37,100 bases of DNA, from positions 1 to 37,100 of the forward strand of contig JAHDPQ010000157.1 of assembly GCA_018434245.1 (NCBI GenBank). The letters run 5' to 3'. Origin of the DNA: Oscillospiraceae bacterium (lineage in GTDB: Bacteria; Bacillota; Clostridia; Oscillospirales; Ruminococcaceae). Under the pieces are notes generated by a model. The model was given only the letters and a program-made list of their open reading frames with translations, did not search any database and was not told the DNA's origin. The translations under genes and the position numbers were made by a program. Positions 5,897 to 29,038 of this stretch are shown piece after piece; the first letter of the stretch is position 1, and each line of letters begins with the position of its first letter.

Positions 5897-6607
5897 ATGA
5901 GCTCAAATTACGACGGATACGATAATTGCGGTTATTCCGGCGATCAGAGACAATACAACCAGGGGCAAAACTATCACTGCCAGGGCCAGGAGCATGATCA
6001 TGGCCAAGGCTACTACGACGGCGATCAGGGCTGCGACCATGGCCATGGCAAGGACAACTGCGACCACGGCAACAATTGCAATTGCAATTGTGACTGGTAT
6101 TCTTGTTGTTATGTAAGCCTCAGAGGCCCTAGGGGATGTCCCGGCCCAAGGGGTCCAATGGGATGCCCCGGCACAAGGGGTCCAAGGGGATGCCCCGGCC
6201 CAAGGGGATGCCCTGGCCCAAGGGGTCCAAGGGGATGCCCCGGCTCAAGGGGCCCAATGGGATGCCCCGGCCCAAGAGGCCCAAGGGGATGCCCTGGCCC
6301 GATGGGACCAATGGGATGCCCTGGGCCAAAAGGCCCTCCCGGACCAATAGGATGCCCCGGTCCCAGAGGATGTCCTGGTCCGATGGGTCCTGCCGGCCCT
6401 GCTGGCCCTGCCGGCCCCGCTGGTGCTGATGGTCCTGCTGGCCCTACCGGTCCTGCTGGCCCTACCGGCCCTGCTGGCCCTACCGGCCCTGCTGGTGCTG
6501 ATGGTCCTGCTGGCCCTACCGGTCCTGCTGGCCCTACCGGCCCTGCTGGTGCTGATGGCCCTGCCGGCCCTGCTGGCGTCAAGACAGGACTAAAAAATAT
6601 TTGTTAA
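5897..6607 (+). CDS. Collagen-like Gly-X-Y protein, 5' part, interrupted
   Basis: The start at ATG 5897 has AAAGGAG seven bases upstream. The N-terminal 75 residues are rich in Gly, His, Asp, Gln and Cys (motifs such as CDHGHGKD and NCNCNCDW), suggesting metal binding or disulfide cross-linking. From residue 77 the protein is an uninterrupted Gly-X-Y repeat, first of the GPRGCPG/GPMGCPG type with regular Cys, then [15 protein letters not shown]. The repeat breaks after the Gly codon at 6575-6577, and a short unrelated tail (VKTGLKNIC) ends at 6607. The same repeat type resumes at 29037, so this is read as the 5' part of a gene interrupted by a mobile element. Clostridial and Bacillus collagen-like proteins (BclA type) are spore-surface filaments; a CATACAAAT sequence near 5824 resembles a mother-cell sigma-E/K -10 element but is weak evidence. 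Confidence 0.75.
6569..6593. other. Left attachment junction (attL-like)
   Basis: The proposed crossover dinucleotide CC is at 6569-6570, followed by a 23-base element arm ending in GGACTAA (6587-6593). Joined to the right junction it gives a symmetric site. The first seven bases of the arm (TGCTGGC) also match the collagen repeat, so the exact crossover is uncertain by several bases. Confidence 0.45.
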
Positions 6608-6710
6608 GAATATCAGTTTGAATAGTCCTAGAAGGGTTTAATACTTGCCAGTGTCTCAAGATGCACTGAAAATTCTTCCGCTTGCATCACTACCCCATAG
6701 CTAAGGCCGC

Positions 6711-6992
6711 TGAAAAAGTATCATGGCAAAAACTTGGGACACCATGCCGCAAAACATCCGGGATATTTATTATGACAAACTCAATCCGTCCCTTGAATTT
6801 ATGGACAACATGATTAAAAATTCCAATAAGCTGGAGATTGTGGCTAAAGCCATTGTCAAAGCCCTGAACGCTAAGAAAATGAAAATACGGTATATCGCTG
6901 GGGTGGATGTGAAATATCTGCCATTTTTGCAACGCTTTCTTGGTGAAAACAGATTTGAATGGTTTATCCTGAAGATGCAGAAATTGATTTGA
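6711..6992 (+). pseudogene. C-terminal remnant of a short-chain dehydrogenase/reductase
   Basis: About 90 residues match the C-terminal end of SDR oxidoreductases of the retinol-dehydrogenase type (KSIMAKTWDTMPQ, then VAKAIVKALNAKKMK and RYIAGVDVKYLPFLQRFLG). The Rossmann domain and the YxxxK active site are absent. The frame is closed by a stop at 6711, and the internal ATG at 6723 has no good ribosome site. It is therefore a 5'-truncated relic near the left end of the insertion. Confidence 0.65.
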
Positions 6993-7123
6993 CCAAGCGC
7001 TCAAAAATGAAAGAAATTATTCTTGCATAAGATAGCCGTAAATAAAAATGAATTCACTAGAATGGTTTCACGAGGAAACATATAATGATGTACCTAATAC
7101 AGCTTTGCCCCGCTGCCAGCTAA

Positions 7124-7375
7124 TTAACTCCAGAAAGCAGCGGAGCTTTTTTCTTTATCTTCTATACTATATAATGTTTTAGACGGTGGGCAATCTGCCC
7201 ATGTTGTCAACTCAATTCTTGTACCAACAGGATACTTTTTTCTAATTTGCTCCATATGATGAGACTTCATGAATCCTTGCATTCTGATTGGCAAAGTAGA
7301 TAAGTTCATCACGCTGTGCTTCTATAGTGCCATGTTCGTTATTACCAACTCTACAATATATTCAGACGCTCCTCG
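7124..7375 (-). pseudogene. Decayed fragment with a DUF4314-like start
   Basis: The motif IRKKYPVGTRIEL resembles the N terminus of small DUF4314 proteins common on clostridial mobile elements. The frame then degenerates and ends after about 20 further unrelated residues. Another frame just upstream (NEHGTIEAQRDELIYFANQ) also looks protein-like but is out of frame. I read this as a rearranged relic. Confidence 0.35.
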
Positions 7376-7389
7376 AAACACCATTTTTA

Positions 7390-9003
7390 TTACCTGTTTT
7401 CATTTGCGTATACTCCTTTTTCGACACACTGAACAAGCCTTATATACTCATCCATATGGTGCCAAACAATTTCAATTTTTTCGCTTCCATAGATATAGAT
7501 GCTGTCAATCAGTTCATCAACCATTTCTTTTGAAAGCTCCGCAAATCCCTCATATCGTTTGAAGCTCTCAATTATGGAACATGGTTGACTATTCTGATAG
7601 CTGCTTTGCAGTGCTATTTCATGTTCTTCGATTCGGGCATCCGTTTCCGCAATCTGCTTGCTAACATCAGCCTTTAGGTTTGTGTAGCTGTCCCGGTCTA
7701 AGGTTCCATCCTTGTATTTTTCATACGTCTTAACTTTGGATGCTTTTAGCTTGGAGAGGACGGCTTGGAGCTGCCTGATTTGCTCTGTCAGAATGGTTAT
7801 ATCATTATGACTTCTCGTTTTCACTCTGTCAAAAATCCGTTTCATATCAAGTATGGCCGCTATTTGCGTATGTAACACGGATAAGACCGTCTGTACCAGG
7901 CTGCTTTCGGAAACCCTGTCCTTTGGACAGTTGCTATCAGATAAATACTGGTGGCTATCGCAATAATAATCTGCTTTCTCTGGAGTGCTATTGCTTCTTC
8001 TCATCGTGTGCCGACAAACTCCACATTTGACTTTGCCCCGCAGGGGCCTGACCTCGGCATGCTTTTTTATTCTTTGAGGGGCAGAAAAACAATCCTGAAC
8101 CGATGCAAACAGTTCTTCTGAAATAATAGCCTCATGGGTATTCGGAACGATAATCCACTGATCTTTCGGAACCCGTTTCCCATGCTTACTCCCAACAGCA
8201 GGGGTACGGTTTTTCCCATTTACCATTTTTCCCGTGTAGCGTTCGTCACGGATAATGGTCAGGACGGTGGTATTTAGCCAGTAGTTTCTATCCCCGACCA
8301 CGTTGTATTTACGGTCACAGCCCATAAGACGCTTATAGGCATACGGCGTCGGGATACTCTCTGCATTCAGAGCAGTAGCAATCTGGACTGCGTTTTTGCC
8401 CTCGTCCGCCATGGCAAAGATACGCCTGACAATGGCGGCGGCCTTTTCATCAATTACAAGTTTCTTGCGGTTTTCCGATGATTTTGCATAGCCATAAGGC
8501 GCATGGCCGCTGATAAATTCCCCCTTTTCCATTCGGGTTTTCTTTGCGCTCCGCACCTTCTGCGAAAGGTCTTTGCTGTAAAGTGAGTAAATCAAATTCC
8601 TGAAACCCACATCAAGCCCGCCGGTCGTACCGTCAAAATCATTGCTATCAAAGCGATCATTGACGGAGATAAAGCGCACCCCTAAAAAGGGAAATATCTG
8701 CTCCAAATAATCTCCAATGTCAATGTAATTTCTTCCGAATCGGGATAAGTCCTTCACAATGATGCAGCGTATGTTTCCCGCACGTACTTCTTCAAGCAAG
8801 GCTTTTACGCCCGGACGGTCAAAATTTGTGCCGCTGTAACCGTCATCGCAAAATTCAACCACTTCATACTGTGAAAGGTCGGGTGAGCTTTCGACAAAGG
8901 ATTTGAGAAGATCCCTCTGGTTTATGATGCTGTTGCTTTCGCCTTCGTTTTCGTCCTCCTGAGACAGCCGGATATAACGGGCGAGGATATTGTTGATACT
9001 CAT
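7390..9003 (-). CDS. Large serine recombinase, third gene of a tandem trio
   Basis: A 537-residue protein with an N-terminal resolvase domain (catalytic serine in ARYIRLSQED; VKDLSRFGRNY), a central Recombinase domain, a zinc ribbon (CGVCRHTMRR, then YYCDSH and NCPKDR) and a C-terminal coiled coil. Large serine recombinases integrate and excise phages and conjugative elements at short att sites. The ATG overlaps the stop of the preceding recombinase (ATGA at 9000-9003), so the genes are translationally coupled. It is the copy nearest the left junction. Confidence 0.93.
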   Translation of the reverse strand: MSINNILARYIRLSQEDENEGESNSIINQRDLLKSFVESSPDLSQYEVVEFCDDGYSGTNFDRPGVKALLEEVRAGNIRCIIVKDLSRFGRNYIDIGDYLEQIFPFLGVRFISVNDRFDSNDFDGTTGGLDVGFRNLIYSLYSKDLSQKVRSAKKTRMEKGEFISGHAPYGYAKSSENRKKLVIDEKAAAIVRRIFAMADEGKNAVQIATALNAESIPTPYAYKRLMGCDRKYNVVGDRNYWLNTTVLTIIRDERYTGKMVNGKNRTPAVGSKHGKRVPKDQWIIVPNTHEAIISEELFASVQDCFSAPQRIKKHAEVRPLRGKVKCGVCRHTMRRSNSTPEKADYYCDSHQYLSDSNCPKDRVSESSLVQTVLSVLHTQIAAILDMKRIFDRVKTRSHNDITILTEQIRQLQAVLSKLKASKVKTYEKYKDGTLDRDSYTNLKADVSKQIAETDARIEEHEIALQSSYQNSQPCSIIESFKRYEGFAELSKEMVDELIDSIYIYGSEKIEIVWHHMDEYIRLVQCVEKGVYANENR

Positions 9004-10676
9004 GAAACCCCCGCCTTTCCGTCCGCCTCAATATAGCAAAGCAGACTTTCAAACTCACCCTTGTACCTGAAGCAGACGGATACTGTTTGATCGCTAAATA
9101 TTTCCACCCGCTCTATCAACTGGTCAATCATTTCCCCCGTTATGACTTTGTTCTTCCGCCATTTCTTCAAAGCCGTAAGCCATGAATTTTGAGGTGTCAG
9201 CATGGTATCAAGCCGGTGCTTTTGACTGAATAGCTCATCAAGTTGGCTCCGCAAAAGGGTAACATCTTTCTCGTACTTTGCTTTTGTAAAAAGATACTTC
9301 GCTTCGTCAAGGAGCTTTTCCTGATAGTCCTCATACAAGGAGCTTCTGAGCATGGATAATCTGGACAACTTCCTCTCGGTTTCGGCTATCTCTGCGTTAA
9401 GTTCACTTTGATGTTGCTTGAAGCTTTGCTTTGCACCCAACTTTGATACCATTTGATCCATGTCAATGGCAAGATCAATCTGCTTGCGAATAGCCGTATA
9501 GAGAACGTCTAACAGTTCCGGTTCATCCATCCGCTTTTTGGTACAATCGTTTTTGGAAATATCCTCGTATGTGACACAGCTAAAGTAATATAGTGTCATA
9601 CCGTTTGCCTTGGGCATTTTGCGACGTTTCATACTCCGCTTGCAATCACCGCAGAAAACACGCCCTTTCAGGATGTTTTCTGTTTGCGCCTCTACTTCTT
9701 TTCTCTCAATGGACTCCCGTTCCTGCTTGATTTGCCTCACCGCAAAAAAGGTTTCTTCGCCAACCAGCGGTTCGTGAGTATTTTTGATTTCCACCCACTG
9801 CTCCCGTGGCAGTTCCACGCAGCCGCCCTTGCCCCATAGATCGGTTTTTGTTTTGCCCTGAACCATATGTCCGAGATAAACCGGGTTGGTTAAAATCCTG
9901 CGGACGGCGCTTTTATACCAATATCGCATATCGGCATAACGTTCATTTTTTAAGATTCCCTTTGTATAGCGATATTGGCTTGGAGAGGGAATCCCCAGCC
10001 CGTTGAGCCTTTGCACAATACGCATATCGCCCATACCGTCACTTGCCCATTTGAAAATATTCCTGACAACAGGGGCAGTTTCCTCGTCGACTACCAGCCT
10101 GCCGTTATCCGCTTTCAGGTAGCCGTAGGCTGCGACACAGCCGGTAAATTCCCCTTTGCTTCTCATAACCGCAAGCCCAGATTTTGTCTTTATAGATATA
10201 TCTCTGGCATACACATCATGAATCAGGTTTTTCAAAGGAACAACATATCCTTCATCCTGGTGATTAGGGTTCAGGCTGTCATAACCATCGTTCACGGAGA
10301 TGAAGCGGACGTTGAAGAATGGCAGTATTTTTTCAAGAAAGGTTCCGGTTTCAATGTAGTTTCTGCCAAAGCGGGAAAGGTCTTTGACCACAATGCAGTT
10401 GATTTTTCCACCTTTTATGGCATCCATCATATCATTGAAGCCGGGGCGTTCGAAGTTCGTTCCGGTCTGATTCATGTCCTTAAAAACAGAGGTGAGCTTT
10501 AAGTATGGCCTTTCCCCAATATAGCGTTCCAACATGGCAATTTGATTGCCAATGGAATCGCTTTCTTTTTTTCGGTCATCTTCAAAAGACAGCCGCCCGT
10601 AAATACAGGTATTCCATATCTGCTCATGAATGGTCTGGACAGGAGGTTTTATCATCTTTCTACTCGTTCTTGCCAT
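9000..10676 (-). CDS. Large serine recombinase, second gene of a tandem trio
   Basis: A 558-residue protein. Its resolvase domain starts unusually far in, at about residue 20 (IYGRLSFEDDRKKESDS), after a basic N-terminal extension (MARTSRKMIKPP). The Recombinase domain, zinc ribbon (CGDCKRSMKRR, then YYFSC and NDCTKKR) and coiled coil follow. The start at 10676 lies one base after the TAA stop of the upstream recombinase and is preceded by AGGGGGTGG; the longer frame to 10814 runs inside the upstream gene and is rejected. Divergence from its neighbours argues against recent duplication. Confidence 0.92.
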   Translation of the reverse strand: MARTSRKMIKPPVQTIHEQIWNTCIYGRLSFEDDRKKESDSIGNQIAMLERYIGERPYLKLTSVFKDMNQTGTNFERPGFNDMMDAIKGGKINCIVVKDLSRFGRNYIETGTFLEKILPFFNVRFISVNDGYDSLNPNHQDEGYVVPLKNLIHDVYARDISIKTKSGLAVMRSKGEFTGCVAAYGYLKADNGRLVVDEETAPVVRNIFKWASDGMGDMRIVQRLNGLGIPSPSQYRYTKGILKNERYADMRYWYKSAVRRILTNPVYLGHMVQGKTKTDLWGKGGCVELPREQWVEIKNTHEPLVGEETFFAVRQIKQERESIERKEVEAQTENILKGRVFCGDCKRSMKRRKMPKANGMTLYYFSCVTYEDISKNDCTKKRMDEPELLDVLYTAIRKQIDLAIDMDQMVSKLGAKQSFKQHQSELNAEIAETERKLSRLSMLRSSLYEDYQEKLLDEAKYLFTKAKYEKDVTLLRSQLDELFSQKHRLDTMLTPQNSWLTALKKWRKNKVITGEMIDQLIERVEIFSDQTVSVCFRYKGEFESLLCYIEADGKAGVS

Positions 10677-10677
10677 C

Positions 10678-12339
10678 TTACACCACCCCCTGCCTTGGAG
10701 GTTCTGCTGCCAGCTCTTTAGCACTCCCGGCAAAGAGCAGCGCCCGTTCATATTCATAGTGATAGCGGAATCGGATCTCCATGCTGCTTCCGGAATAGAT
10801 ATTGACCCACTCAATCAGATAAATAATCACCTTTCGGGACAGCTTGGTGATGTTCCGGTGCTTTTTGAAGGCTTCCATCCAAATGCTGTTTGCTCCCTCA
10901 CCCGCAAGAATCAGGGTCATATCCTGTTTCAGCCGTCCCGCAGCCTTTTCCGCTTCCTCGACCCTTTTCCCGTATATTTCTTTGAACTCCCTGTACTCAT
11001 CCGCATCAATCATACCGCTTTTCAAGTCTTCATAAATAGATACTTTAAGGGTTTTATATTTTTCGATTTCCTCCTGCTTCATCAGCAGTTGGGTATCCAT
11101 TTTTCGGATTTCCTCCTGTTGCATGGGAAGTGTGTCGATATAACGGAGAATCCGTTCAATATCCAGAATCGAAGCGATATGATTTTGAAGTGCTTGCAGG
11201 ACCGCCTTTTCCAGCATCTTTTCACTGATGCAGTGGGTGGTGCAGCCGTCCCCAGCCTTATTCTTGGAGCAATAATAATAGGCGTACTTTTTACCGCCTG
11301 CGGGTACGGTCTTTCGTACCATGCCGCTCTTGCAGTCTGCGCAGAAAATCAGGCCGGAGAATGGGTAGACCGTTTCCTCGTCCGGTGCGATACGGGTATC
11401 CTGTGCAAGCACACGGTTCACCGTATCAAACACTTCCTGCGAAATAATCGGCTCATGGGTGTTTTCCACCCGAATCCATTTATCTTCCGGTTTCATAAAC
11501 CGTTGTTTGATTTTGTAGTTGGGGGTGCTTTCCTTGCCCTGCACAAGATGCCCCGCATAGATGGGGTTTTTCAGGATGCGGCCGATTGCCACGGCAGTCC
11601 ATTTTGCCTTGGGGTTTACCTGAAAGCTGGTAGCAAAGTTAAGCCCTAAAAATCGCTTGTATTCCATGGGGGACGGTTCGCTGATTTCATTGAGCCTATC
11701 GGCTATCCCTTGCTGACTTAGCCCCTCCAGCTTCCATGCAAAAATATCCCGCACAATCTTTGCGGCATAGGGGTCTATAACCAGTTGATTTTTATTTTCT
11801 TCCGACTTCAAATAACCGTATACGGCAAAGGAGCCAATGAATTCACCTTTTTTACGCTTTATATCAAGTTGACTCCTGATTTTAACGGAAATGTCTCTGC
11901 AATACGCATCATTGACAAGGTTCTTGAAAGGAATGATAATATCGTCTGACGGTGATTTTTCCTTTGCACTGTCGTAACCGTCGTTGATGGCAATGAAACG
12001 CACACCTAAAAACGGAAAAATCCGTTCAATGTATCGTCCTGCTTCGATGTAGTTTCTGCCGAAACGGGACAGGTCTTTGACTATGATACAGTTGATCCGC
12101 CCAGCTCTTACATCCTCCATCATCAAATTAAAGGCAGGACGATTAAAGTCAACACCACTAAATCCATCATCTATTCTTTCCGAACAGAGGCGGATTTCGG
12201 GCATTGACTTCACAAAATTGGTTATTAAATCTCTTTGATTGGCAATGCTGTCGCTTTCTGCTTTATCGCCATCTTCTTTAGACAGGCGCAAATAGTCCAC
12301 AGCATTGTATACGATTGTATCCTTATTATCAAATGGCAT
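10678..12339 (-). CDS. Large serine recombinase, first gene of a tandem trio
   Basis: A 553-residue protein with resolvase catalytic region (VDYLRLSKEDGDKAESDS; VKDLSRFGRNY), Recombinase domain, zinc ribbon (CADCKSGMVRK, then YYYCSKN and GCTTHC) and coiled coil. The start at ATG 12339 has GGGAGGT six bases upstream; a TTG fifteen bases earlier lacks a ribosome site. It heads an operon of three recombinases with one-base or four-base junctions. Triple serine-integrase modules are reported on some Firmicute conjugative elements and may act together. Confidence 0.93.
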   Translation of the reverse strand: MPFDNKDTIVYNAVDYLRLSKEDGDKAESDSIANQRDLITNFVKSMPEIRLCSERIDDGFSGVDFNRPAFNLMMEDVRAGRINCIIVKDLSRFGRNYIEAGRYIERIFPFLGVRFIAINDGYDSAKEKSPSDDIIIPFKNLVNDAYCRDISVKIRSQLDIKRKKGEFIGSFAVYGYLKSEENKNQLVIDPYAAKIVRDIFAWKLEGLSQQGIADRLNEISEPSPMEYKRFLGLNFATSFQVNPKAKWTAVAIGRILKNPIYAGHLVQGKESTPNYKIKQRFMKPEDKWIRVENTHEPIISQEVFDTVNRVLAQDTRIAPDEETVYPFSGLIFCADCKSGMVRKTVPAGGKKYAYYYCSKNKAGDGCTTHCISEKMLEKAVLQALQNHIASILDIERILRYIDTLPMQQEEIRKMDTQLLMKQEEIEKYKTLKVSIYEDLKSGMIDADEYREFKEIYGKRVEEAEKAAGRLKQDMTLILAGEGANSIWMEAFKKHRNITKLSRKVIIYLIEWVNIYSGSSMEIRFRYHYEYERALLFAGSAKELAAEPPRQGVV

Positions 12340-12509
12340 AACGAAACCTCCCAATTGAAAAAGTCAAGAAGCAAAACCTGACTGAATCAATGGGCGTTCG
12401 CTAATATTAGTCCGCTATTATTATAGCACCCCTATCAGGGCGCGTCCAGACAAAACAGCAGCTTTTCCGAACCCACATGGTCAGGCTCCGCCCAAAAAAA
12501 TCATCCATC

Positions 12510-12773
12510 TCACATCATCCTCAATAAACTTTCCATTCTGTCCTCCAGCGTGGCGCCGGTATCGTTAAAGCTGATTTTGACAACCACCTTGCCGCACCGG
12601 TAGCAATATGGATTTCCTATTTGCCGGATAAAATCCAGTATCCGTTCTTCTTTGGGCAGCTTTGTATTGACCTTTATATCGTTAATGTCAACCAGCGTAT
12701 CCGGGTTGACCGTTCGCACATCCACCTGTTTTAATGCCGAAAAATCCATTTGGGAGAAATCAGAGTTTCCCAT
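12510..12773 (-). CDS. Small mobile-element protein (DUF6870-like)
   Basis: An 87-residue protein with core VDINDIKVNTKLPKEERI and IRQIGNPYCYRCGKVVVKI, followed by LEDRMESLL. It is clearly paralogous to the product of 31190-31450, which also lies just upstream of a large serine recombinase. I associate it with the DUF6870 family from memory. Function is unknown; the CxxC-like YCYRCG motif may bind metal. ATG 12773 is preceded by GGGAGGG. Confidence 0.7.
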   Translation of the reverse strand: MGNSDFSQMDFSALKQVDVRTVNPDTLVDINDIKVNTKLPKEERILDFIRQIGNPYCYRCGKVVVKISFNDTGATLEDRMESLLRMM

Positions 12774-16258: not shown

Positions 16259-16393
16259 TATTTGGACATTCCATCCGGTTTCGCCATTTCTACCTCTATA
16301 ACATCCGACGCAAAACGAAACAAAACCGTAAAACAGGTACATTTTTTTTAATTAAAATAGCGCAAAATAAGTGAAAAGATTTATTGTTCATAG

Positions 16394-16411
16394 TTTGAAA
16401 ACGTTTTCAAA
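16394..16411. promoter_or_regulatory. Perfect LacI-type operator upstream of the ABC transporter operon
   Basis: TTTGAAAACGTTTTCAAA is a perfect 18-bp palindrome centred on CG, 117 bases before the binding-protein start. It also fits the CcpA cre pattern, so dual control is possible. Confidence 0.8.
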
Positions 16412-16527
16412 AGAACTTTCGCCGCACGCATATGCCGCTTCCCCAGGCGGACGTGCTCCACAAGGTATCCGCGGGCGTTGGCCCGATATATCCCAAGTAC
16501 CAAACAAAATTAAGGAGGAACAGAAAC

Positions 16528-17914: not shown

Positions 17915-17967
17915 CCGGCGCAGAACGACGCTCCTGCTCTCCCTCTTTTACCTGCGTTCTGCGCCGG
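17915..17967 (+). promoter_or_regulatory. Intercistronic hairpin between binding protein and permeases
   Basis: CCGGCGCAGAACG (17915-17927) pairs perfectly with CGTTCTGCGCCGG (17955-17967). There is no T-tail. Hairpins in this position usually protect the upstream mRNA or reduce downstream expression. Confidence 0.65.
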
Positions 17968-17992
17968 CCGTATGTACACAAGGAGGTCTAAC

Positions 17993-19698: not shown

Positions 19699-19739
19699 GA
19701 AATACTTTGCGTCATATGACGTTGGATTAGGAGAAAACA

Positions 19740-20651
19740 ATGAAAAAACTGTTTGGTATCACCCCCGCAATGACAACGCCGTTTTCCGATAACGGCGACG
19801 TAGACTTAGATTCCATAGCCACGCAAACGGAGATGCTGGTGCAAAAGGGCGTAAACTGCCTGTACCCTAGCGGCACCACCGGCGAAATGTTGCGTCTGAG
19901 CATGGAGGAGCGCAAGCAGGTGATGGAGACCGTTGTGAAGACGGCAGCGGGGAGGCTTCCTGTTTATATCCATTGCGGCGCCATGGCGGAGAATGATACT
20001 ATCGCGCTTGCCAGGCACGCGCAAAAGATCGGCGCGGATGGCATCGGTGTGGTAACCCCACAGTTCTTTGGGCTCAACCCACGCGAGATGGAGGAATTCT
20101 ACGTTCGTGTCGCGGGGAGCGTCGCACCCGATTTCCCCGTTTATCTTTATAACATCCCACAATGCGCTGCCAACGACATTTTGCCCGAGGTTGCGCAGAG
20201 GATTGCGGACCGTGCAAAAAACGTGATCGGTATCAAGTACAGCTTTTCGGATATCAACCGCACGATGGATTACCTCAAGATTAATAACTGGACATTCTCC
20301 GTCATGCACGGCAACGACCGTGTATACGTGGGCTTTCGCGCGCTGGGCTGCACGGGCACGGTCTCCGGCATTGCCGGCGTGTTCCCCGAGCCTTTCGTAG
20401 AAGTGCAGCGCGCTATCGATGCGGGCGACTGGGAAAAGGCCAAGGTATGGCAGCGCCAATGCGCGCGCATTACAGATATCCTAAAGGCAGGCAGCAATAT
20501 GTCTTATTTTAAGGAAGCGCTGACCCTGCGTGGTCTGCGCGGCGGCCATATGCGCAGGCCCCAGCTCGATATCGTTCCCGCGGAAATTACCAAGCTGAAC
20601 GCCGAACTCGAGGAGTTCTGCACCGATAACGGCATATCGCTCAAAATCTGA
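19740..20651 (+). CDS. DapA/NanA-family class I aldolase (probable 2-keto-3-deoxy acid aldolase)
   Basis: A 303-residue TIM-barrel lyase. The GTTGE carboxylate-binding motif is at 45-49, Tyr137 is in YLYNIP, and the Schiff-base lysine is Lys166 in GIKYS. The family includes dihydrodipicolinate synthase, N-acetylneuraminate lyase and keto-deoxy-sugar-acid aldolases, all reversible pyruvate aldolases. The neighbouring IlvD/Edd dehydratase, kinase and transporter favour cleavage of a 2-keto-3-deoxy sugar acid to pyruvate plus an aldehyde; this is inference. It starts 42 bases after the permease, preceded by AGGAG. Confidence 0.88.
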   Translation: MKKLFGITPAMTTPFSDNGDVDLDSIATQTEMLVQKGVNCLYPSGTTGEMLRLSMEERKQVMETVVKTAAGRLPVYIHCGAMAENDTIALARHAQKIGADGIGVVTPQFFGLNPREMEEFYVRVAGSVAPDFPVYLYNIPQCAANDILPEVAQRIADRAKNVIGIKYSFSDINRTMDYLKINNWTFSVMHGNDRVYVGFRALGCTGTVSGIAGVFPEPFVEVQRAIDAGDWEKAKVWQRQCARITDILKAGSNMSYFKEALTLRGLRGGHMRRPQLDIVPAEITKLNAELEEFCTDNGISLKI

Positions 20652-20665
20652 GGAGGCGAGATCAA

Positions 20666-21625
20666 GTGGGCAAGGTATTGGTCACATCCTCGCACTTTGA
20701 AACACTTTGCCTTCCGGCAAAGAAGCTTCTCGAAGACGCGGGGCACGAGGTGGTCGTCTACAAGGGCGAGCTGCCGTATATGAGCTATAAGCAGATCGCG
20801 GCGGTCATAGGCGATATTGACGGCGCCATTATCGGCTTGGACGATTGGACGAACGAGGTGTTCAACATCGCGCCTAAGCTCAAGGTTGTCGCGAAATTCG
20901 GCGCCGGTACAGATAACATCGATAAGGAAAGCGCCAAAAGGCACGGTATCAAGGTTATCAACGCGCCGGGCATCAACTCCAACGCCGTTGCAGAGCTGAC
21001 GATCAGCTTGATCATCGACATGCTCCGCGATATAACGTTCCTGCATATGGCGCTGTGCGAGGGCGAGTGGCGGCGCAGCCTTGGCAACGAGCTGGAGGGC
21101 CGCACGGTGGGCTTGATGGGCTTTGGCGCCATTGCCCGCCTCGTGGCCAAGAAGCTTCAGGGCTTCGACGTACGCGTGCTGGCCTACGACCTGTATCCGG
21201 ATCATGAAGCGGCCAAGAGATACGGCGTGGAGCTCGTTTCGGCGGAGCAGATCATACGGGAAAGCGATATCGTAAGCGTTCATGTGCCGAGCACGAAGGA
21301 AACCTTTCACATGTTTGACGACGCAACCTTTGTAAAAATGAAGCAGGGCTCCTACCTTATCAACGCCGCGCGCGGCGCGGTGGTGGATACGCAAGCACTC
21401 TTGCGTGCGCTCGATTCGGGCAGGCTTGCGGGCGCGGCGCTTGACGCGTTCGAGCATGAACCTTTGGGACAGAACCATCCGCTCCTGACGAGCGGCAAGG
21501 TCATATGCACGCCCCATACGGGCGCCGAAACGCGCGAGGCCTACCACAAGGTAAGCATGTGCGTCGCACAGGGCGTCACCGACGTTCTCGCCGGCAGGGA
21601 TCCAATCTACTGGGTCAACCGCTGA
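20666..21625 (+). CDS. D-2-hydroxyacid dehydrogenase (SerA-like)
   Basis: A 319-residue NAD-dependent dehydrogenase with a split catalytic domain and a Rossmann domain at about 100-285 (GRTVGLMGFGAIARLVAKKL; the usual final Gly of GxGxxG is Ala). It also carries the NAARGAVVD arginine motif, the AALDAFEHEPL glutamate and the TPHTGAET histidine. It lacks the ACT domain of biosynthetic SerA, so a catabolic role on a sugar-derived 2-hydroxy or 2-keto acid is more likely. Translation starts at GTG 20666 with AGGAGG nine bases upstream. Confidence 0.88.
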   Translation: MGKVLVTSSHFETLCLPAKKLLEDAGHEVVVYKGELPYMSYKQIAAVIGDIDGAIIGLDDWTNEVFNIAPKLKVVAKFGAGTDNIDKESAKRHGIKVINAPGINSNAVAELTISLIIDMLRDITFLHMALCEGEWRRSLGNELEGRTVGLMGFGAIARLVAKKLQGFDVRVLAYDLYPDHEAAKRYGVELVSAEQIIRESDIVSVHVPSTKETFHMFDDATFVKMKQGSYLINAARGAVVDTQALLRALDSGRLAGAALDAFEHEPLGQNHPLLTSGKVICTPHTGAETREAYHKVSMCVAQGVTDVLAGRDPIYWVNR

Positions 21626-21659
21626 AAGGAAGCCTGTTTTGGTGATCCTGTGGTTCAAG

Positions 21660-22420
21660 GCCAAATCCGAATGTAAAAATATAAATCGGATGTCGTTGCC
21701 CTTCTGCCGGCGCCGACCATAGAGAATATAAAAAAACTGCCGGGCTACGGGCTTTACCGTGGTAGCAGAAAGTGTAAACGCTGTATTTCTGCCATGGTAT
21801 CACGGGCGATCACTTGGACGGGATCCGCTTCTCGCACAATAACAACTGCGTGCAGGACCATATGCTCGCCCCAGTGATGCCCTTTGGTACAGAACAGCTC
21901 CTTTCCTAACATCTCTGGGAGCTGCGCCTATTACAACTATGTGTTCTGCAAAAAGCCACCGCCATGAACTGGATGTTCCCCCTCTCGTGCAAACGCAAAA
22001 ACACGTTCATCGCGGGGCTGAGCATGGGCGGCAGCGGCGTGTTTAAGGGCCCCGAAAGGTTTGGAGCCGTGGCCTGATCCCTTGGGGCGCTTTCCAACCG
22101 CCCCAAGGGATCAGGCAGGATCGCAGCTGCCTGTATGCGGTGGCCTGTGGACACAACAAAAAGCCCATGGGCATCATCGAGGATCTCTACCGGCAATCAT
22201 CCGAGGTTATCAGCCGCGGGGCCGACTCACCCAAGCTCTTCCTCTGCTGCGGCATGCAGGGCGATATCTGCTACGAAAGCAGCGCAAATTTCAGAGCATA
22301 GGTAGACTATATCGGCCTGAAGCATACCGGCCGCGAACAGCCCGGTGGGTGCGATCGGGATTTCTGGGACGATTGAGATCAAGCGCGTGCTGACATGGCT
22401 GTCACTCAAAACGATTTTAT
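21660..22420 (+). pseudogene. Decayed esterase (tributyrin-esterase/esterase D family)
   Basis: Pieces in different frames follow the order of a putative esterase: LYFCHGITGDHLDGIRFSHN then MLAPVMPFG (from 21781), NTFIAGLSMGGSGVFK with the GxSxG nucleophile (about 22000-22040), YIGLKHTGREQPGG then FWDD, and in another frame EIKRVLTWLSLK near the end. Several stops and frameshifts interrupt it. The neighbouring genes are intact, so this is the only dead member of the operon. It may once have removed an acyl or ester group from the imported sugar. Confidence 0.65.
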
Positions 22421-22456
22421 AGACGGGGGAGAGCTTCCCCCAGATAAGGAGCCAAT

Positions 22457-23452
22457 ATGCAATCCAAGCCGAAAATTTTAGTTGTTGGAAGCTTTGTAAT
22501 GGATCAGATCGCGGAAACGCCGGTTTTCCCCCGGCAGGGGCAGACCGTCCTCGGCGGCAGATTTACCAAGGCGCCCGGCGGCAAAGGGGCCAACCAGGCC
22601 GTACAGGCGGCGCGCCTTGGCGCGGATGTGACGATGGTGGGCAAGCTTGGCCGCGATGCCAACTGCGAGGAAATGCTCGCCGCCTGCAAGCGTGACGGCA
22701 TACGTACCGAGCATGTGCTGTACGACCCCAAGGAGCCGTCCGGCTGCTCGGTGATCATTTTAGAAAAGGGCGGCGACGGGCAGACACTCAACCGCATTAT
22801 CGTGCTATCGGGCTCGAACATGACGATCACGACGGAGGAGGTCGCATTTCTTGAGGAGCTTCTTCCCGCGTACGACCTTGTGATGTTGCAGCTGGAAATA
22901 CCCATGGAAGTCAACGAATTTGTGGCGGAAATGGCGTACCGCAAGGGCGTTAAGGTGATGCTCAATTCTGCACCCAGCGCGCCGCTTTCGGACAAGTTCC
23001 TGTCCCACCTCACCTATATATCGCCCAACGAGCATGAGGCGTACGACTTAACCGGTATCGAAATACGCCACGAAGGGAAGCGTGTGGAGCTTGCCGACGC
23101 TCGCGCTGCGGCGCAGGCGCTTAGAAACAAGGGTGTCCAGAACGTGCTCATCACCCTGGGAGACGCAGGTGCGGTGCTGGATACGGAAAGGGGTTTCCAT
23201 TACGGCCCAGGCGTGGAGGGTGTCGTAGCTGTGGACCCCACGGCGGCGGGTGATTCCTTTGTGGGTGCGTTTTGCGTGGGGAGCTGCCTGAACTGGCAGG
23301 AAGAGGAGCTTTTGCGCTTCGCCAATCATACCGCAGCACTCACCGTATCCAAAATGGGTGCCATGCCTTCGCTGCCCGTTCTTTCCCAGGTGGAGGCCTA
23401 CCTTGCGCAAAAGGGTGTAGAGTGGCCCGACACCTCCGTATTGAAAGCTTAG
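22457..23452 (+). CDS. PfkB-family carbohydrate kinase (ribokinase-like)
   Basis: A 331-residue kinase. The N-terminal PfkB signature GGKGANQAVQAARLGADV is at about 42-59, and the C-terminal signature DPTAAGDSFVGAF (catalytic Asp in AAGD) near 257-269. Overall similarity is to RbsK. The RbsD/FucU mutarotase nearby supports a ribokinase-like role, but a 2-keto-3-deoxygluconate kinase role would fit the dehydratase and aldolase better. The substrate is unresolved. AAGGAG precedes the start. Confidence 0.9.
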   Translation: MQSKPKILVVGSFVMDQIAETPVFPRQGQTVLGGRFTKAPGGKGANQAVQAARLGADVTMVGKLGRDANCEEMLAACKRDGIRTEHVLYDPKEPSGCSVIILEKGGDGQTLNRIIVLSGSNMTITTEEVAFLEELLPAYDLVMLQLEIPMEVNEFVAEMAYRKGVKVMLNSAPSAPLSDKFLSHLTYISPNEHEAYDLTGIEIRHEGKRVELADARAAAQALRNKGVQNVLITLGDAGAVLDTERGFHYGPGVEGVVAVDPTAAGDSFVGAFCVGSCLNWQEEELLRFANHTAALTVSKMGAMPSLPVLSQVEAYLAQKGVEWPDTSVLKA

Positions 23453-23462
23453 GAGTGTTTTT

Positions 23463-24071
23463 ATGAAAGAAAGATGCAAACAGGCCTACACTTCCTTTAC
23501 CAAGCACATGGTCGATCAATGTGAAAAGACGATACGCAGTATGGATTACGCGGCGCTGGAGCAGGCTGCATATATCATCCTCGAAGCGGAAAGCAAGGGC
23601 GGCCGCGTGCATGTTTCCGGTATCGGCAAGCCTGCGCATATCGCGGGCTACGCCGCGTCACTTTTATCCTCCACGGGTACGCCCACGAGCTTTTTGCACG
23701 GCACGGAGGCCGTGCACGGCTCCTGTGGGCAAACGCGCCCGGGCGATGTGGCGATCTTCATCTCCAACAGTGGGGAAACGGTGGAAATGCGCGCCACCGT
23801 AAGGGCGCTTAAAAACAACGGCTGCCGCATTATTGGCATAAGTGGCAATGTGGGCTCGTGGCTCGCCAAGGAAAGCGAACTACATCTGTTTGCGGGCGTA
23901 GAGTGCGAGGGCGGCCCCCTCAACCGCGCGCCGCGTTTATCGATTCTTGCGGAAACGGCCTTGCTGCAGGCGCTCAGCGTCATATTGCAGGCGCATCACG
24001 ATATCACGCCGCAGCAGTATGTATGTTGGCACCCCGGCGGGGCGCTGGGCAAGCTCAGGGAAGGGGAATAG
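23463..24071 (+). CDS. SIS-domain sugar-phosphate isomerase (KdsD/KpsF-like, no CBS domains)
   Basis: A 202-residue protein made of a single SIS domain: GKPAHIAGYAASLLSSTGTP, then FLHGTEAVHGSCGQ, the phosphosugar-binding ISNSGET loop, and the C-terminal CWHPGGALGK helix. The pattern matches arabinose-5-phosphate isomerase but the tandem CBS domains are missing, as in catabolic stand-alone versions. It probably interconverts a keto- and an aldo-pentose or hexose phosphate. It lies ten bases after the kinase gene and overlaps nothing. Confidence 0.88.
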   Translation: MKERCKQAYTSFTKHMVDQCEKTIRSMDYAALEQAAYIILEAESKGGRVHVSGIGKPAHIAGYAASLLSSTGTPTSFLHGTEAVHGSCGQTRPGDVAIFISNSGETVEMRATVRALKNNGCRIIGISGNVGSWLAKESELHLFAGVECEGGPLNRAPRLSILAETALLQALSVILQAHHDITPQQYVCWHPGGALGKLREGE

Positions 24072-24072
24072 C

Positions 24073-24483
24073 ATGAACAGGCAAGGTTGCATCCATCCGG
24101 AAATACTCTCGGTATTATCACGCTGCGGCCATGGCGACCGCATTTTGATCGCGGACGGCAACTATCCCATCGCCAGCCGCTGCCCGCAGGCGGCGCACGT
24201 CTATCTGGGTGTTACAGCGGGCATCCCGGGCGTTCCTCAGGTGCTGGACGCGATCCTCGCCGAGATTAACGTGGAAGAAGCCGTTGTTATGACCCCCGGC
24301 AGCGGTACCGAGCCGGCGATATTTGAGGAATTTAGCAAGCGGCTTCCCGGTATAGAGCTTAGCGATCTTGGCCGCTTCGAGTTCTACGCGGCGGCAACCG
24401 AGCCGAACGTTCGGCTTGCCATCTCCACGGGCGAGGGTCGAACCTTCGCCAATATTCTACTGACTGTCGGCGTTGCGGGCTAA
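24073..24483 (+). CDS. RbsD/FucU-family sugar mutarotase
   Basis: A 136-residue protein with the family motifs HPEILSVLSRCGHGDRILIADG (His and Asp of the active site) and the C-terminal GEGRTFANILL. It catalyses anomer interconversion of a free sugar before phosphorylation. ATG 24073 follows the SIS stop by one base, with AAGGGGAA as ribosome site; the longer frame inside the SIS gene is rejected. Confidence 0.92.
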   Translation: MNRQGCIHPEILSVLSRCGHGDRILIADGNYPIASRCPQAAHVYLGVTAGIPGVPQVLDAILAEINVEEAVVMTPGSGTEPAIFEEFSKRLPGIELSDLGRFEFYAAATEPNVRLAISTGEGRTFANILLTVGVAG

Positions 24484-24527
24484 AATGCATAATACTGCGG
24501 CCGGAGGGCCAGAAGGGAACGGTAACA

Positions 24528-26198
24528 ATGAAAAAGCTACGCAGCCAAACCTATTTGAAACGGCCGATATGGTCCAATATCCGCGCTCTGTACAAAGGGG
24601 TAGGGTTCAGCGAATATGACCTTGAAAGGCCAATGATTGGCATAGCAAACTCGTGGAACACCGCCAACCCCGGGCATAGTGGCCTTAACGCCGTTGCAGA
24701 GGCCGTGCGGCAGGGCATCTGGCAGGCGGGCGGCACACCGGTCACATTCGGTATCATAGGGCCCTGCGACGGCATGGGCTGCGGAAACGACGGCATGCGC
24801 TACATCCTCCCTGCCCGCGGTTTAATTGCGGACGAGGTGCAGAGCATGGCGGAGATCAACCACCTTGACGGCCTAGTGCTTTTAGGCTCCTGCGACAAAG
24901 TGATACCCGGGCTTTTGATGGCGGCGGCGCGGCTTGATCTGCCCGCACTCCTCGTCAACGGGGGGCCATCGCTTGCGGGTGTACCGTTTGACGGACGGCA
25001 ATCGGATAATTCCAGCGTCACAGAGGCGCTGGCAATGCTCAACGACGGCAAGATCACGCAAGAGGAATACCTGCGTGTGGAAAACGGCTCCAGCCTCTGC
25101 TGGGGCTCCTGCTCCTTCCTTGGCACGGCCAATACGATGTGCGCCGTTGCGGAGGCGCTGGGCATGATGCTTCCCGGCAGCTCCATGATTCCCTCGGTCT
25201 ATGCGGAGCGCTTGCGCGCTGCGCAGGCATCCGGGCGGAGAATTGTCAGTATGGTGCACGAAGGGCTTAACGCTCGCAAGGTCATCAACTGCCACGGGCT
25301 TAGAAACGCGGCCCGCCTCGGCATGGCAATCGGCGGCTCCACCAATATGGCGCTGCATTTTCCAGCTATCGCTTACGAGGCAGAGTGCGCCTTTACCATG
25401 GAAGATATCGATACTATCGCCCGCTCCACGCCGCATATTGCCAAAATATACCCCAACGGCCCGCTCACCGTGCCCGATTTTTACAATGCGGGCGGTGTAC
25501 CCGCGGTTATGAAGCACCTTTTGCCCATGCTGGATAAGGAGGCGCTTTTGTGTACGGGGGAAACTTGGGCAGAAATGCTCAAGTGCATACCGGCCGTAGA
25601 AAATGACGTCATCCACGCGCTCGAGAACGCGTGGCATACACGGGGAAGCCTCGCGGTGCTGCGTGGCAACCTCGCACCGGATTCGGCTATCACCAAGCCC
25701 ACCGCGATCGATCCCGGTATGCAACGCTTCAGCGGCGTTGCCCGCTGCTTCGATTCGGAGGAGGAGGCCTCCGGGGCCGTACTTGCGGGCGGCATTCGCC
25801 CGGGCGACGTGCTCGTGATACGCTATGAGGGGCCTCGGGGTGGCCCGGGCATGCGCGAAATGGCACGCGTCATGAAGATGCTCTACGGGCAGGGGCTTGC
25901 GCTCTCCACAGCCATCGTAACGGACGGGCGCTTTTCGGGCACGAACAACGGCTGTTTTGTGGGGCATGTATCGCCAGAGGCATCCGCGGGCGGTCCCATC
26001 GCCGCGGTGCGCGACGGCGATCGTATTTCCATTGATATTCCCGCAGGCACGCTAACGCTGGAGATCCCCGAGGAAGCGCTTCGGGAACGCCTCAAGAACC
26101 TTACACCGCCTATGAAAAAGAAAGCGGTTGGCTGCTTGAACATTTACGCAAGGTTGGCGGAGTCCGCCGATAAAGGCGGCATCATCCCAAACAGGTAA
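24528..26198 (+). CDS. IlvD/Edd-family dehydratase (probable sugar-acid dehydratase)
   Basis: A 556-residue Fe-S dehydratase of the size of DHAD. Candidate cluster cysteines are Cys80 (GPCDGMG), Cys122 (GSCDK) and Cys194 (WGSCSFLGTANTM). The C-terminal substrate region contains VTDGRFSGTNNG and GHVSPEA. The family dehydrates dihydroxy acids or aldonates to 2-keto acids. Biosynthetic ilvD is not expected beside a sugar transporter, so an aldonate dehydratase feeding the DapA-type aldolase is the better reading. It ends the operon. Confidence 0.88.
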   Translation: MKKLRSQTYLKRPIWSNIRALYKGVGFSEYDLERPMIGIANSWNTANPGHSGLNAVAEAVRQGIWQAGGTPVTFGIIGPCDGMGCGNDGMRYILPARGLIADEVQSMAEINHLDGLVLLGSCDKVIPGLLMAAARLDLPALLVNGGPSLAGVPFDGRQSDNSSVTEALAMLNDGKITQEEYLRVENGSSLCWGSCSFLGTANTMCAVAEALGMMLPGSSMIPSVYAERLRAAQASGRRIVSMVHEGLNARKVINCHGLRNAARLGMAIGGSTNMALHFPAIAYEAECAFTMEDIDTIARSTPHIAKIYPNGPLTVPDFYNAGGVPAVMKHLLPMLDKEALLCTGETWAEMLKCIPAVENDVIHALENAWHTRGSLAVLRGNLAPDSAITKPTAIDPGMQRFSGVARCFDSEEEASGAVLAGGIRPGDVLVIRYEGPRGGPGMREMARVMKMLYGQGLALSTAIVTDGRFSGTNNGCFVGHVSPEASAGGPIAAVRDGDRISIDIPAGTLTLEIPEEALRERLKNLTPPMKKKAVGCLNIYARLAESADKGGIIPNR

Positions 26199-26478: not shown

Positions 26479-26733
26479 CTATTGCAAAGAAAACTGGTTT
26501 TTAACGTGATTTACCTTCCCGGTTAACTTTTGGAATAGGATTTTTGTGCGGGTAAGAAGCTGATCCAACTCACAATCAAAAGCTTCACAGATGCGGTCTA
26601 GATAATCGAGAGTGATTCTTACAGGCACACCGTGATAAAGGTTGTTGATCGTGTTAGATCGGATTCCTGTTATTCGGGAAAGTTCGGCCTGGGACATATG
26701 CCGTTCTTCTAGTAAGCGGGAAAGGTAAATCAA
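26479..26733 (-). CDS. Xre-family helix-turn-helix regulator
   Basis: An 84-residue protein with an N-terminal HTH (YLSRLLEERHMSQAELSRIT, then IRSNTINNLYHG and LDYLDRICEAFDCELDQLL). The first in-frame start is TTG 26733 with no good ribosome site, so the start is uncertain. It is divergent from the Abi-alpha gene with 24 bases between, a layout typical of a regulator controlling an adjacent defence gene. Confidence 0.78.
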   Translation of the reverse strand: MIYLSRLLEERHMSQAELSRITGIRSNTINNLYHGVPVRITLDYLDRICEAFDCELDQLLTRTKILFQKLTGKVNHVKNQFSLQ

Positions 26734-26757
26734 AAGATGTAAGGGGGCAAAGGAATC

Positions 26758-27702
26758 GTGCTCGATAAAATCGCGGAATCATTAATACCTTCATTTTTGA
26801 AAAAGGTAGCTGAATCTCCGTCTGAGGAATTGGGAAGCCGCATAGCTGATGTGATCAATTTGATTTTCACCCCTATTTTAATGCTAAAAATAAAACAGGA
26901 ACACCACTTAAAGAATTTCGCAAAGGAACTCGATAGTGATTTGTCTGAAATTCCTACAGAACGCCTGTGTGAACCTCCATTGCATTTATTAGGGCCAGCT
27001 CTAGAAGCAAGCAAATATTATTATGAGAATGAAGACTTGAGAAGAATGTTTTCTCAGCTGATCGCATCGTCATGTGATTTTAAAAAGCTTCCTTTTGTAC
27101 AGCCATCTTTTGTTGAAGTGTTGAAACAATTGTCAATGGTGGATGCTCAAATCTTAACTCTTTTTAGAAAAGAGGACACAATTACTGTATCTACCTCACT
27201 AACAATTAATGATCAAGAACCCATTCCGTCTGATCCTCAGCCAATATCTAAAAGCTATGTTGAAGTGATATATCCCATCGTAGAAATGCACTTAAAAGAC
27301 AATCAAGGATATACATTGTTGCAAAATGATGTATTTGTAGAAACAGATATTGAGGACATGGCAACGGTGGCTTCAGCAATTGGAAATTTAACTCGCCTTG
27401 GGCTTATAACCGTTGATTATACAAAAAAGCTGAGCGAAGACCAGTACAACAAGTTTTATAACCACCCATTTTATAAAGACACTCAAAAAAAATATATTGT
27501 CGGTCAAGATGATCCCATTCCAAATGGGGTAAGTCTCAGCTTTGTAAATATTCGTGGGCATATCTGTATGGGAAATAGTTTTGAGCAAATTGAACTACGC
27601 AAAGGGCTTACCCGTTTGACTCAGTATGGATATGATTTTTCTAAAGTATGTATTGTGTCCGATGACATCAAGCCCATTGTTCACGCATCTTCTGTTAACT
27701 GA
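26758..27702 (+). CDS. Abi-alpha (DUF4393) family protein, putative phage defence
   Basis: A 314-residue protein. The conserved DUF4393 core is at about 65-120 (LCEPPLHLLGPALEASKYYYENEDLRRMFSQLIASS, then QPSFVEVLKQLS). Family members are annotated as abortive-infection alpha proteins; the mechanism is not established. The C-terminal half (YVEVIYPIVEMHLK, then ASAIGNLTRLGLI) resembles a winged-helix-like sensor region. It starts at GTG 26758 with AAAGGA very close upstream. Codon use is AT-rich compared with the sugar-acid island, suggesting separate acquisition. Confidence 0.8.
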   Translation: MLDKIAESLIPSFLKKVAESPSEELGSRIADVINLIFTPILMLKIKQEHHLKNFAKELDSDLSEIPTERLCEPPLHLLGPALEASKYYYENEDLRRMFSQLIASSCDFKKLPFVQPSFVEVLKQLSMVDAQILTLFRKEDTITVSTSLTINDQEPIPSDPQPISKSYVEVIYPIVEMHLKDNQGYTLLQNDVFVETDIEDMATVASAIGNLTRLGLITVDYTKKLSEDQYNKFYNHPFYKDTQKKYIVGQDDPIPNGVSLSFVNIRGHICMGNSFEQIELRKGLTRLTQYGYDFSKVCIVSDDIKPIVHASSVN

Positions 27703-27703
27703 T

Positions 27704-28347: not shown

Positions 28348-28374
28348 ATTCGGGCTCCTTTCAATTTAGGTATG

Positions 28375-28530
28375 TTAAAAATCGGAGAAGGAGCGCTGGC
28401 GCAGATTGGTTTCCGTAACGATTAAAACAGCATCCTCCTCATAGGTCAGGTTTTCACGGATAATAACGGGGCCTCAATCCCGCAAGCTGGGCGGCATTTT
28501 TACGGTTGTGTCCGCTTAGAATGATTACCG
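28375..28530 (-). pseudogene. ParB-domain remnant
   Basis: Two frames give IILSGHNRKNAAQLAGL and then VIIRENLTYEEDAVLIVTET with NLRQRSFSDF and a stop at 28375. This is the core of the ParB nuclease-like domain (GHNRxNAAxLAG, TETNLxQRSFSD). The N-terminal part and the C-terminal HTH are gone. Confidence 0.65.
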
Positions 28531-28539
28531 CCCGTCCTG

Positions 28540-28909
28540 GTTATGCCAAAGGATATGGTATCAACGTATCGTGTCAGGATATGTTCACGGAAATCTACAT
28601 TGCAGGGATTTCGATCAAGGGTAAAAAGCTGAGTGTTGGAGAGGATCAAGTCAACCCCACACTTGGTTTTGAATATGTAGCTAGGGGCAATGGCTCGTCC
28701 TCAACCAGCCTGCGTATTAGCGTATTGATTGTCACCTCCAGCTTGTTGGTGTTCTTCACACCGGAAATAATGCTTGAATGTCCCTGACCGTCAAAGTCAA
28801 TCAGGGCAGTACAGTTTCCTCTCTTGGACAAAAGATAGGCAAGCGTGGTTGCCGTGGCTGTTTTTCCCACTCCACCCTTTCCATTAATAATCGCAATGAT
28901 TTTTGCCAT
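28540..28909 (-). pseudogene. ParA-family ATPase remnant, frameshifted and truncated
   Basis: ATG 28909 opens a ParA N terminus with deviant Walker A ([20 protein letters not shown]) and the FDGQGHSS switch. After SKPSVG the frame fails, and the true continuation ([18 protein letters not shown], then CNVDFREHIL) is in another frame. It then runs directly into ParB sequence, so an internal deletion has removed the ParA C-terminal half. The start lies 128 bases from the right junction, the usual place for partition genes at the end of such elements. Confidence 0.7.
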
Positions 28910-29013
28910 CGGCGTGCTCCTTTCTTGGGTAAAAGATTTGGGTAATGGGTAAATAGGGTAAAAAAGTGGACTAAGATTAGCGAAAAATCCTTTGGTATAG
29001 CGGTTTTCCTTGC

Positions 29014-29038
29014 TTAGTCCAATTATAACAGAGTCACC
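29014..29038. other. Right attachment junction (attR-like)
   Basis: TTAGTCC (29014-29020) is the outer arm; 16 bases follow, then the proposed crossover CC at 29037-29038, and collagen repeat from there. It is the mirror partner of the left junction. Confidence 0.45.

Follow-up and report, generated by a model that had tools for sequence, protein, structure and literature searches.

Gene-splitting elements with serine recombinases are exemplified by gin, a non-phage element of 28.6 kb with three serine recombinase genes that lies in gerE of Bacillus cereus ATCC10987 (PMC5595907). Tn4451 and Tn4453, with the large resolvase TnpX, are serine-recombinase elements whose target site has 2 bases (PMC3158075). 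According to Durrant et al. 2022 (PMC10083194), several genes may be targets of a single recombinase cluster, and DUF4368 is common in the multi-targeting clade of that study. Here, a 37,100-base stretch of DNA from an Oscillospiraceae bacterium is described (the window, which is the entire contig C58 of a draft genome of 3.11 Mb in 185 contigs). Within it, a collagen-like gene is split twice, by element 1 (6569-6570 / 29037-29038) and by element 2 (29265-29266). The gene is proposed to be the integration target of two different large-serine-recombinase elements, with in-principle exact reversal, at a probability of roughly 0.87. The junctions, arms, cores, frame restoration and target preference are all documented at the level of sequence. 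What looks new is the double split and the use of a repeat array as target; the mechanism is of a known kind. A literature search, with most subscription journals falling outside its coverage, returned no paper describing integration into collagen-like repeats, and the word collagen is absent from the main text, the part covered, of PMC10083194.

Element 1 resembles gin in size, in its three recombinases, in splitting a gene of a (here probably) sporulating host and in that excision would rebuild the interrupted frame. The differences are that gin occupies a short sporulation-regulator gene, undergoes a demonstrated sporulation rearrangement and has its third recombinase apart (PMC5595907), whereas element 1 has a repeat-array target, tandem recombinases and a relative with conjugation-type genes. 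By analogy, element 1 could work like gin for the interrupted gene; its excision alone would not restore that gene, because element 2 follows 230 bases later. With the multi-targeting clade, the likeness lies in a DUF4368 match of the recombinase rec3, which is below the cut-off. In contrast to the recombinases of PMC10083194, the targets here have a common property, Gly-X-Y repeat DNA. The pieces of the split gene, the recombinases, and the arms and cores of the attachment site rebuilt by joining the ends of an element (attP) are arranged in the window as follows.

5897..6570, plus strand: collagen-like gene, 5' piece, with the N-terminal part and Gly-X-Y repeats (PF01391, E 7.9e-23; starts at ATG 5897)
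6569..6570, plus strand: rec3-side junction of element 1, core dinucleotide CC (reads GG on the minus strand), the same core as in homologues
6571..29036, unstranded: element 1 (22.5 kb), from direct sequence reading and script
6571..6593, minus strand: rec3-side 23-base attP arm of element 1 (TTAGTCCTGNCTTGACNCCAGC), including TTGACG at 6577-6582 (minus strand)
7390..9003, minus strand: rec3, large serine recombinase, from recombinase domains
9000..10814, minus strand: rec2, large serine recombinase, from recombinase domains
10678..12354, minus strand: rec1, large serine recombinase, from recombinase domains; grouped with the rec4 clade in the tree
12510..12773, minus strand: DUF6870 protein upstream of rec1, a candidate recombination directionality factor
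29014..29036, minus strand: far 23-base attP arm of element 1 (TGMCTCTGTTATAATTGGACTAA), including TATAAT at 29022-29027 (minus strand)
29037..29266, plus strand: collagen-like gene, middle piece, carrying core CC (29037-29038, element 1) and core AC (29265-29266, element 2)
29267..37100, unstranded: portion of element 2 inferred to fall in C58; its far end maps to contig C94 (arm word at 89944-89958)
29267..29289, minus strand: rec4-side 23-base attP arm of element 2 (GTTGTGCATAAATA...), from sequence comparison
29303..31072, minus strand: rec4, large serine recombinase of element 2, from recombinase domains
31190..31450, minus strand: DUF6870 protein of element 2, from a family match

The first-pass annotation of this DNA had the collagen repeats end at 6577 and resume at 29037, and placed the crossover at the CC of 6569-6570 and 29037-29038 with the frame restored. 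Both readings hold. On direct reading, in-frame collagen triplets extend from ATG 5897 to 6577 and are back at 29037, and joining 5897-6570 to 29039 onward leaves the Gly-X-Y frame intact as far as element 2. The 23-base arms, their mirrored TTAGTCC/GGACTAA and the 13 of 23 mirrored positions were all reproduced by script. The serine-recombinase element with a symmetric attP proposed there is borne out by the recombinase domains, arms and core; rec1, rec2 and rec3 are full length and in tandem, and resolvase, recombinase and zinc-ribbon domains are found in rec1 to rec4. In both elements, the attP is symmetric around a dinucleotide common to both junctions (23+2+23), with 13 or 14 of 23 mirror matches across four element 1 copies. 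As judged from the homologues, the junction anatomy of element 1 is more than chance, because both arms recur in homologous elements by collagen-like DNA with the same GG/CC core. The earlier doubt that seven bases of the left arm could be collagen repeat is settled by the same comparison: CCAGCA (TGCTGG) is kept in elements with differing collagen neighbours and therefore belongs to the element. GTCA as an alternative shared core was rejected, since constant element sequence continues past it to GG, where the collagen sequences diverge, and joining there would break the reading frame; GTCA is also present in the homologue arms, except the Lacrimispora far arm. Frame restoration is automatic in conservative serine recombination and therefore backs the crossover, not a regulatory role.

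A search with rec3 returns three bacterial genomes at 75-83% identity (Lacrimispora amygdalina, Clostridium sporosphaeroides and Anaerocolumna sp. AGMB13025) and six loci in IMG/VR, four of them at 83-85%; in phages and plasmids, the protein search gives matches only under 60%. The rec3-side arm has zero mismatches in Lacrimispora, Anaerocolumna, the window and one IMG/VR record, and is directly followed by Gly-X-Y coding DNA in those four cases. The far arm, traced through TATAATTGGACTAA, is exact in the complete chromosome of Anaerocolumna, 84.9 kb from the rec3-side arm, on a second Lacrimispora contig and close to the beginning of an 87,470-base IMG/VR record, and Gly-X-Y DNA precedes all three. 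At up to 2 mismatches, TATAATTGGACTAA has many chance matches (for example, 74 and 60 in Anaerocolumna, against 140 and 132 with the reversed control), and only exact matches adjoining Gly-X-Y DNA were counted. All four two-ended copies (window, Anaerocolumna, Lacrimispora and IMG/VR 3300017589_000168) have an identical core and 23-base arms at both ends, the arms being nearly the same from copy to copy. One further end each lies by Gly-X-Y DNA in IMG/VR 3300034683_000466 (rec3-side arm) and C. sporosphaeroides (far arm). Thus eight close copies, the window included, comprise six that retain an end, all six in collagen-like genes. Two further candidate ends with 3 mismatches were set aside: the flank in G422 is without Gly-X-Y, at roughly one chance match expected over 391 genomes, and G000:C64:1193, also without Gly-X-Y, was taken as chance.

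The direction of insertion differs between copies. Relative to the collagen-like gene, the window and C. sporosphaeroides copies are oriented opposite to the other four, and the core is part of a Pro codon (CC) in the window and of a Gly codon (GG) in the others. When the flanks are joined, the collagen-like gene of Anaerocolumna has 3,379 codons and that of Lacrimispora is open. The Anaerocolumna element carries conjugation-type genes (MobL relaxase, TraG P-loop, T2SSE ATPase, ParA and ParB_N). The 87,470-base IMG/VR 'virus' record, IMGVR_UViG_3300017589_000168 (L028, L046, L075, L077), has both element 1 family ends with collagen-like DNA outside them, and so resembles an integrative element more than a virus.

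The second break of the collagen pattern, at core AC (29265-29266), which the first-pass annotation had missed, lies 36 bases before the stop codon of rec4. The 3' part of the gene is on contig C94, which was located by a collagen-family search of the host genome through a match below the cut-off: there, the arm GTTGTGCATATATTAGCGTAGCA precedes the same repeat unit, followed by a C-terminal domain and a stop. Each arm of element 2 has 23 bases, AC lies between the two, and 20 of the 23 positions mirror each other on a count by eye. When all three pieces of the gene are joined, a 472-codon open frame with a continuous triplet array results. Its C-terminal domain is without Pfam or NCBIfam match, and all matches above the family cut-off in the host genome fall in this one gene. 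The element 2 arm has no exact match in IMG/VR. L117, L119 and L120, hits to the arm pattern, are away from Gly-X-Y DNA and were set aside as chance. An element 2-type arm at L116 (G624:C50:261-275) lies by Gly-X-Y DNA and belongs to another insertion, and two rec4-clade copies (L112, L113) have core AG instead of AC.

An uninterrupted collagen-like gene in relatives, which the first-pass annotation had named as a check, is found in part. The same-genus genome G006 has such a gene with a related C-terminal domain (31% identity), and is the sole match among 10 other genomes of the genus in the C-terminal comparison; the N-terminal part as query has no match in G006. The G006 gene adjoins a gene closely similar to the one next to the C94 piece, which is aldolase-like.

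Target preference was scored from a rec4 search of 394 genomes of the order, with the best three or fewer candidates per genome, at a threshold of E 1e-150; nine genomes passed, the host included. Within 300 bases past the recombinase stop, at least 4 Gly-X-Y triplets are present in 9/9 of this clade, 5 in 8/9 and 6 in 7/9, versus at least 4 in 0/49 control recombinase genes. In six element 1 copies, where the junction is further away, the same test is negative for rec1, rec2 and rec3 (0/18). Over up to 6 kb on each side, clipped at contig ends, 0/40 control loci hold at least 6 triplets; these loci were hand-chosen from the listed matches rather than drawn at random, with the exclusion of, among others, host-genome places, the rec4 homologue in G459 and short contigs. 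An earlier control with flanks of about 1.5 kb gave 0/30 but was blind to the rec3 geometry, and none of 16 other recombinase loci (6 in the host, 10 IMG/VR relatives of rec4 at 28-35% identity) has 6 triplets. Three further rec4-clade elements were mapped at both ends, spanning about 38.6, 13.9 and 39.8 kb, and their ends adjoin Gly-X-Y DNA, as do both ends of element 2 in the host genome. On these comparisons, collagen-like repeats are a target for two recombinase clades.

When 79 recombinases are placed in a tree, rec1, rec2, rec3 and the rec4 clade form one group each. Support of 96/91 unites rec1 and rec4 in a larger group, which also takes in four further rows; in the stretches covered, those four have no Gly-X-Y DNA beside them. 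A DUF6870-like gene accompanies 5/5 further element 1 copies examined and 8/8 further rec4-clade loci, versus 3/40 control loci, all three of which have rec1- or rec4-type recombinases. The likeliest integrase of element 1 is rec1, and rec4 is the putative integrase of element 2; the DUF6870 protein is a candidate partner or directionality factor of both. Two relatives of these recombinases adjoin frames of other kinds. The sister recombinase of the rec4 clade at L157 (G468:C74:22288-31237) is directly followed by a frame that presumably corresponds to the C-terminal part of SpoVAD, then SpoVAE, and is possibly part of another element splitting a sporulation gene. A more distant recombinase at L171 (G477:C6:44310-56645) adjoins a frame that looks like a ClpP/TepA-type protease.

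The remaining features of element 1 concern its transcription and gene content.

12399..12448, minus strand: promoter-like region of the recombinase operon, with TGGACG (12443-12448), 17 bases and TATAAT (12420-12425); role read by eye
12399..12413, minus strand: operator-like GGACTAATATTAGCG in this promoter region, by eye
15227..26198, plus strand: sugar-acid cargo, from family matches
26479..27702, both strands: helix-turn-helix protein (minus) and Abi_alpha protein (plus), from family matches
28646..28909, minus strand: ParA-like fragment of 87 aa, the first recognised gene inside the far end; its Anaerocolumna counterpart has 270 aa
28956..29022, minus strand: hairpin then T run, directly downstream of the -10 box (z -3.6)

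On one strand of the rebuilt element 1 attP, TTGACR, 17 bases and TATAAT follow each other, with the GG core within the spacer, in 4/4 two-ended copies. The -35 half comes from the rec3-side arm and the -10 half from the far arm, and integration splits them; once the element is integrated, the hexamer standing in the -35 position agrees with TTGACA at 1, 0, 0 and 0 of 6 positions in the four copies. The predicted promoter points toward the ParA, ParB and transfer-type genes, away from the recombinases, and the strand that it would read carries almost every long frame of the Anaerocolumna element. The attP promoter is predicted to be functional. A hairpin and T run follow the -10 box, with z of -3.6 in the window and -6.5 and -6.9 in two relatives; this structure may alternatively block read-through from the collagen-like gene. 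Promoters of this general kind have reportedly been seen before: Lyras and Rood are said to have found in 2000 that the Tn4451/Tn4453 circle forms a promoter, and Tn916 reportedly shows circular-junction-dependent transcription. The Tn4451/Tn4453 promoter serves the recombinase gene, whereas the predicted promoter of element 1 points to the ParA/transfer end, and the targets differ. In ICEclc and ICEKp1, element genes are expressed through the joined ends from a promoter near one end (PMC13023037), whereas in element 1 the two hexamers are on opposite ends.

The proposed sequence of events is as follows. Each element would have inserted by conservative recombination at a dinucleotide within Gly-X-Y DNA, GG/CC for element 1 and AC/GT for element 2. 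With Gly-X-Y repeats as attachment sites, similar targets would be plentiful in either orientation, and this would account for both the occurrence of either element direction and two insertions in one gene. Excision would return the open frame exactly. Circularisation would join the -35 hexamer of one end to the -10 of the other with 17 bases between, so that the circle gains a promoter reading into the ParA/ParB/transfer end, and integration into collagen-like DNA would take the -35 away again.

Several observations weigh against this account. The hairpin and T run could end or attenuate the transcript of the assembled promoter. The rec3-side flank of the IMG/VR copy 3300017589_000168 holds only about three triplets, C. 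sporosphaeroides is without a rec3-side arm within 4 mismatches, and for the IMG/VR homologues L076 and L079 the DNA covered contains no arm. An arm search over the class (391 genomes) gives, besides the host, one 3-mismatch match, away from Gly-X-Y DNA. The exact attP pattern of element 1 is absent from IMG/VR, and the 57-base attP as query has no match in plasmids or phages. No circle was seen and no empty allele of the same species, the compared genomes being one per species. The ends in Lacrimispora and those of element 2 lie on two contigs each, so their pairings are inferred, and the nine rec4-clade recombinases include one pair with the same sequence. Neither the more distant trio elements (L180, L181) nor the sister recombinases (L157, L171) have Gly-X-Y DNA beside them in the stretches covered; therefore, the target preference is not general to the lineage.

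The first-pass annotation went further and read the split as a regulated, reversible interruption of a spore-surface gene. Its element, crossover, frame and probable sporulator stand; the regulation and the spore role are so far unsupported. A doubtful though not negligible explanation is that these are developmental gene-intervening elements like skin, SPbeta/spsM and gin, with excision in the mother cell rebuilding a spore-surface gene in sporulation. The host genome has a strong SpoIVA match (E 7.5e-118) and therefore probably sporulates, collagen-like proteins are often spore-surface proteins, excision would restore the frame (the complete gene requires the loss of both elements), and L157 precedes what is presumably the end of SpoVAD. 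The non-phage gin of B. cereus, with three serine recombinases, shows a sporulation-specific rearrangement (PMC5595907). Against such excision, the recombinase operon promoter, TGGACG-17-TATAAT, looks vegetative-type by eye, two elements would need to exit the same gene, and relatives occupy different collagen-like genes of other genera, one of them with conjugation-type genes.

That collagen-like genes are hit merely as dispensable and G+C rich, their repeat DNA going unrecognised by the recombinases, is improbable. Serine-recombinase mobilisable elements are reported to disrupt dispensable genes (PMC5704250), but the contrast between 9/9 loci of one clade and 0/49 control genes speaks for recognition, and both elements entered the single gene that holds all above-cut-off collagen matches of the host. 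An assembly join across identical collagen repeats has hardly any claim at all: the genome is a draft of 185 contigs with repeats on both sides and element 2 spans a contig break, yet the same arms and core stand at like junctions in a complete chromosome and other records, and a 23+2+23 anatomy with frame is hardly a misassembly product. Integration of two elements into the repeat array remains the preferred account.

Among the genes of element 1, the cargo encodes a LacI-type regulator, an ATP-binding cassette (ABC) binding protein, two permeases, a dihydrodipicolinate synthase (DHDPS)-type protein, a 2-hydroxyacid dehydrogenase, a PfkB kinase, an SIS protein, RbsD/FucU and an ILVD/EDD dehydratase; a phage-tail-chaperone-like protein is also encoded. 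No relaxase, TraG-type ATPase or related transfer gene is recognised among the window proteins scanned (some short frames fell outside the scan), and the window copy is therefore called derived from an integrative and conjugative element (ICE), not an ICE. By its gene content, it is a reduced relative of a conjugative-type element, with sugar-acid genes. The Abi_alpha protein (26758-27702) is a possible phage-defence gene. The operator-like GGACTAAKATTAGCG occurs at the recombinase promoter (12399-12413) and near the far end (28968-28982), which suggests one regulator common to both.

The part of element 2 in the window includes transposase, helicase C-terminal piece, Ldh_2 and KduI proteins. 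A 31-base hairpin-like stretch (GCAGCCCGCCTACGAGAAGTAAGCGGGCTGC) flanks the transposase (31680-33044) at 31561-31591 and 33090-33120. The helicase C-terminal piece (PF13307) and an adjoining frame without Pfam match occupy 33099-34013, and a 753-aa relative adjoins the recombinases of the Anaerocolumna element. Genes resembling sugar-acid or uronate metabolism are present in both elements, at 15227-26198 (ILVD/EDD, PfkB, RbsD) and 34243-36525 (KduI, Ldh_2).

A wider reading, speculative and rather unlikely, would join these observations. Collagen-like spore-surface genes of Clostridia would be standing landing arrays for several serine-recombinase lineages, with many equal bacterial attachment sites (attB) in both directions in a gene needed only in the doomed mother cell; such a gene could be split repeatedly, like an intron gene, and rebuilt by mother-cell excision, and the circle would turn on its own transfer operon through the joined-end promoter. 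For integration into the repeat array itself, the consequences are more direct. If true, an attB that codes for repeats would open many species to such elements with no need for a single conserved gene, and would provide recombinases for G+C-rich triplet-repeat DNA. The split promoter, if true, would be a switch coupling excision to transfer genes. A repeat-array target could account for broken-looking collagen-like genes in genomes, and the doubly split gene offers a clear case for the question of whether spore-surface genes are rebuilt in the mother cell.

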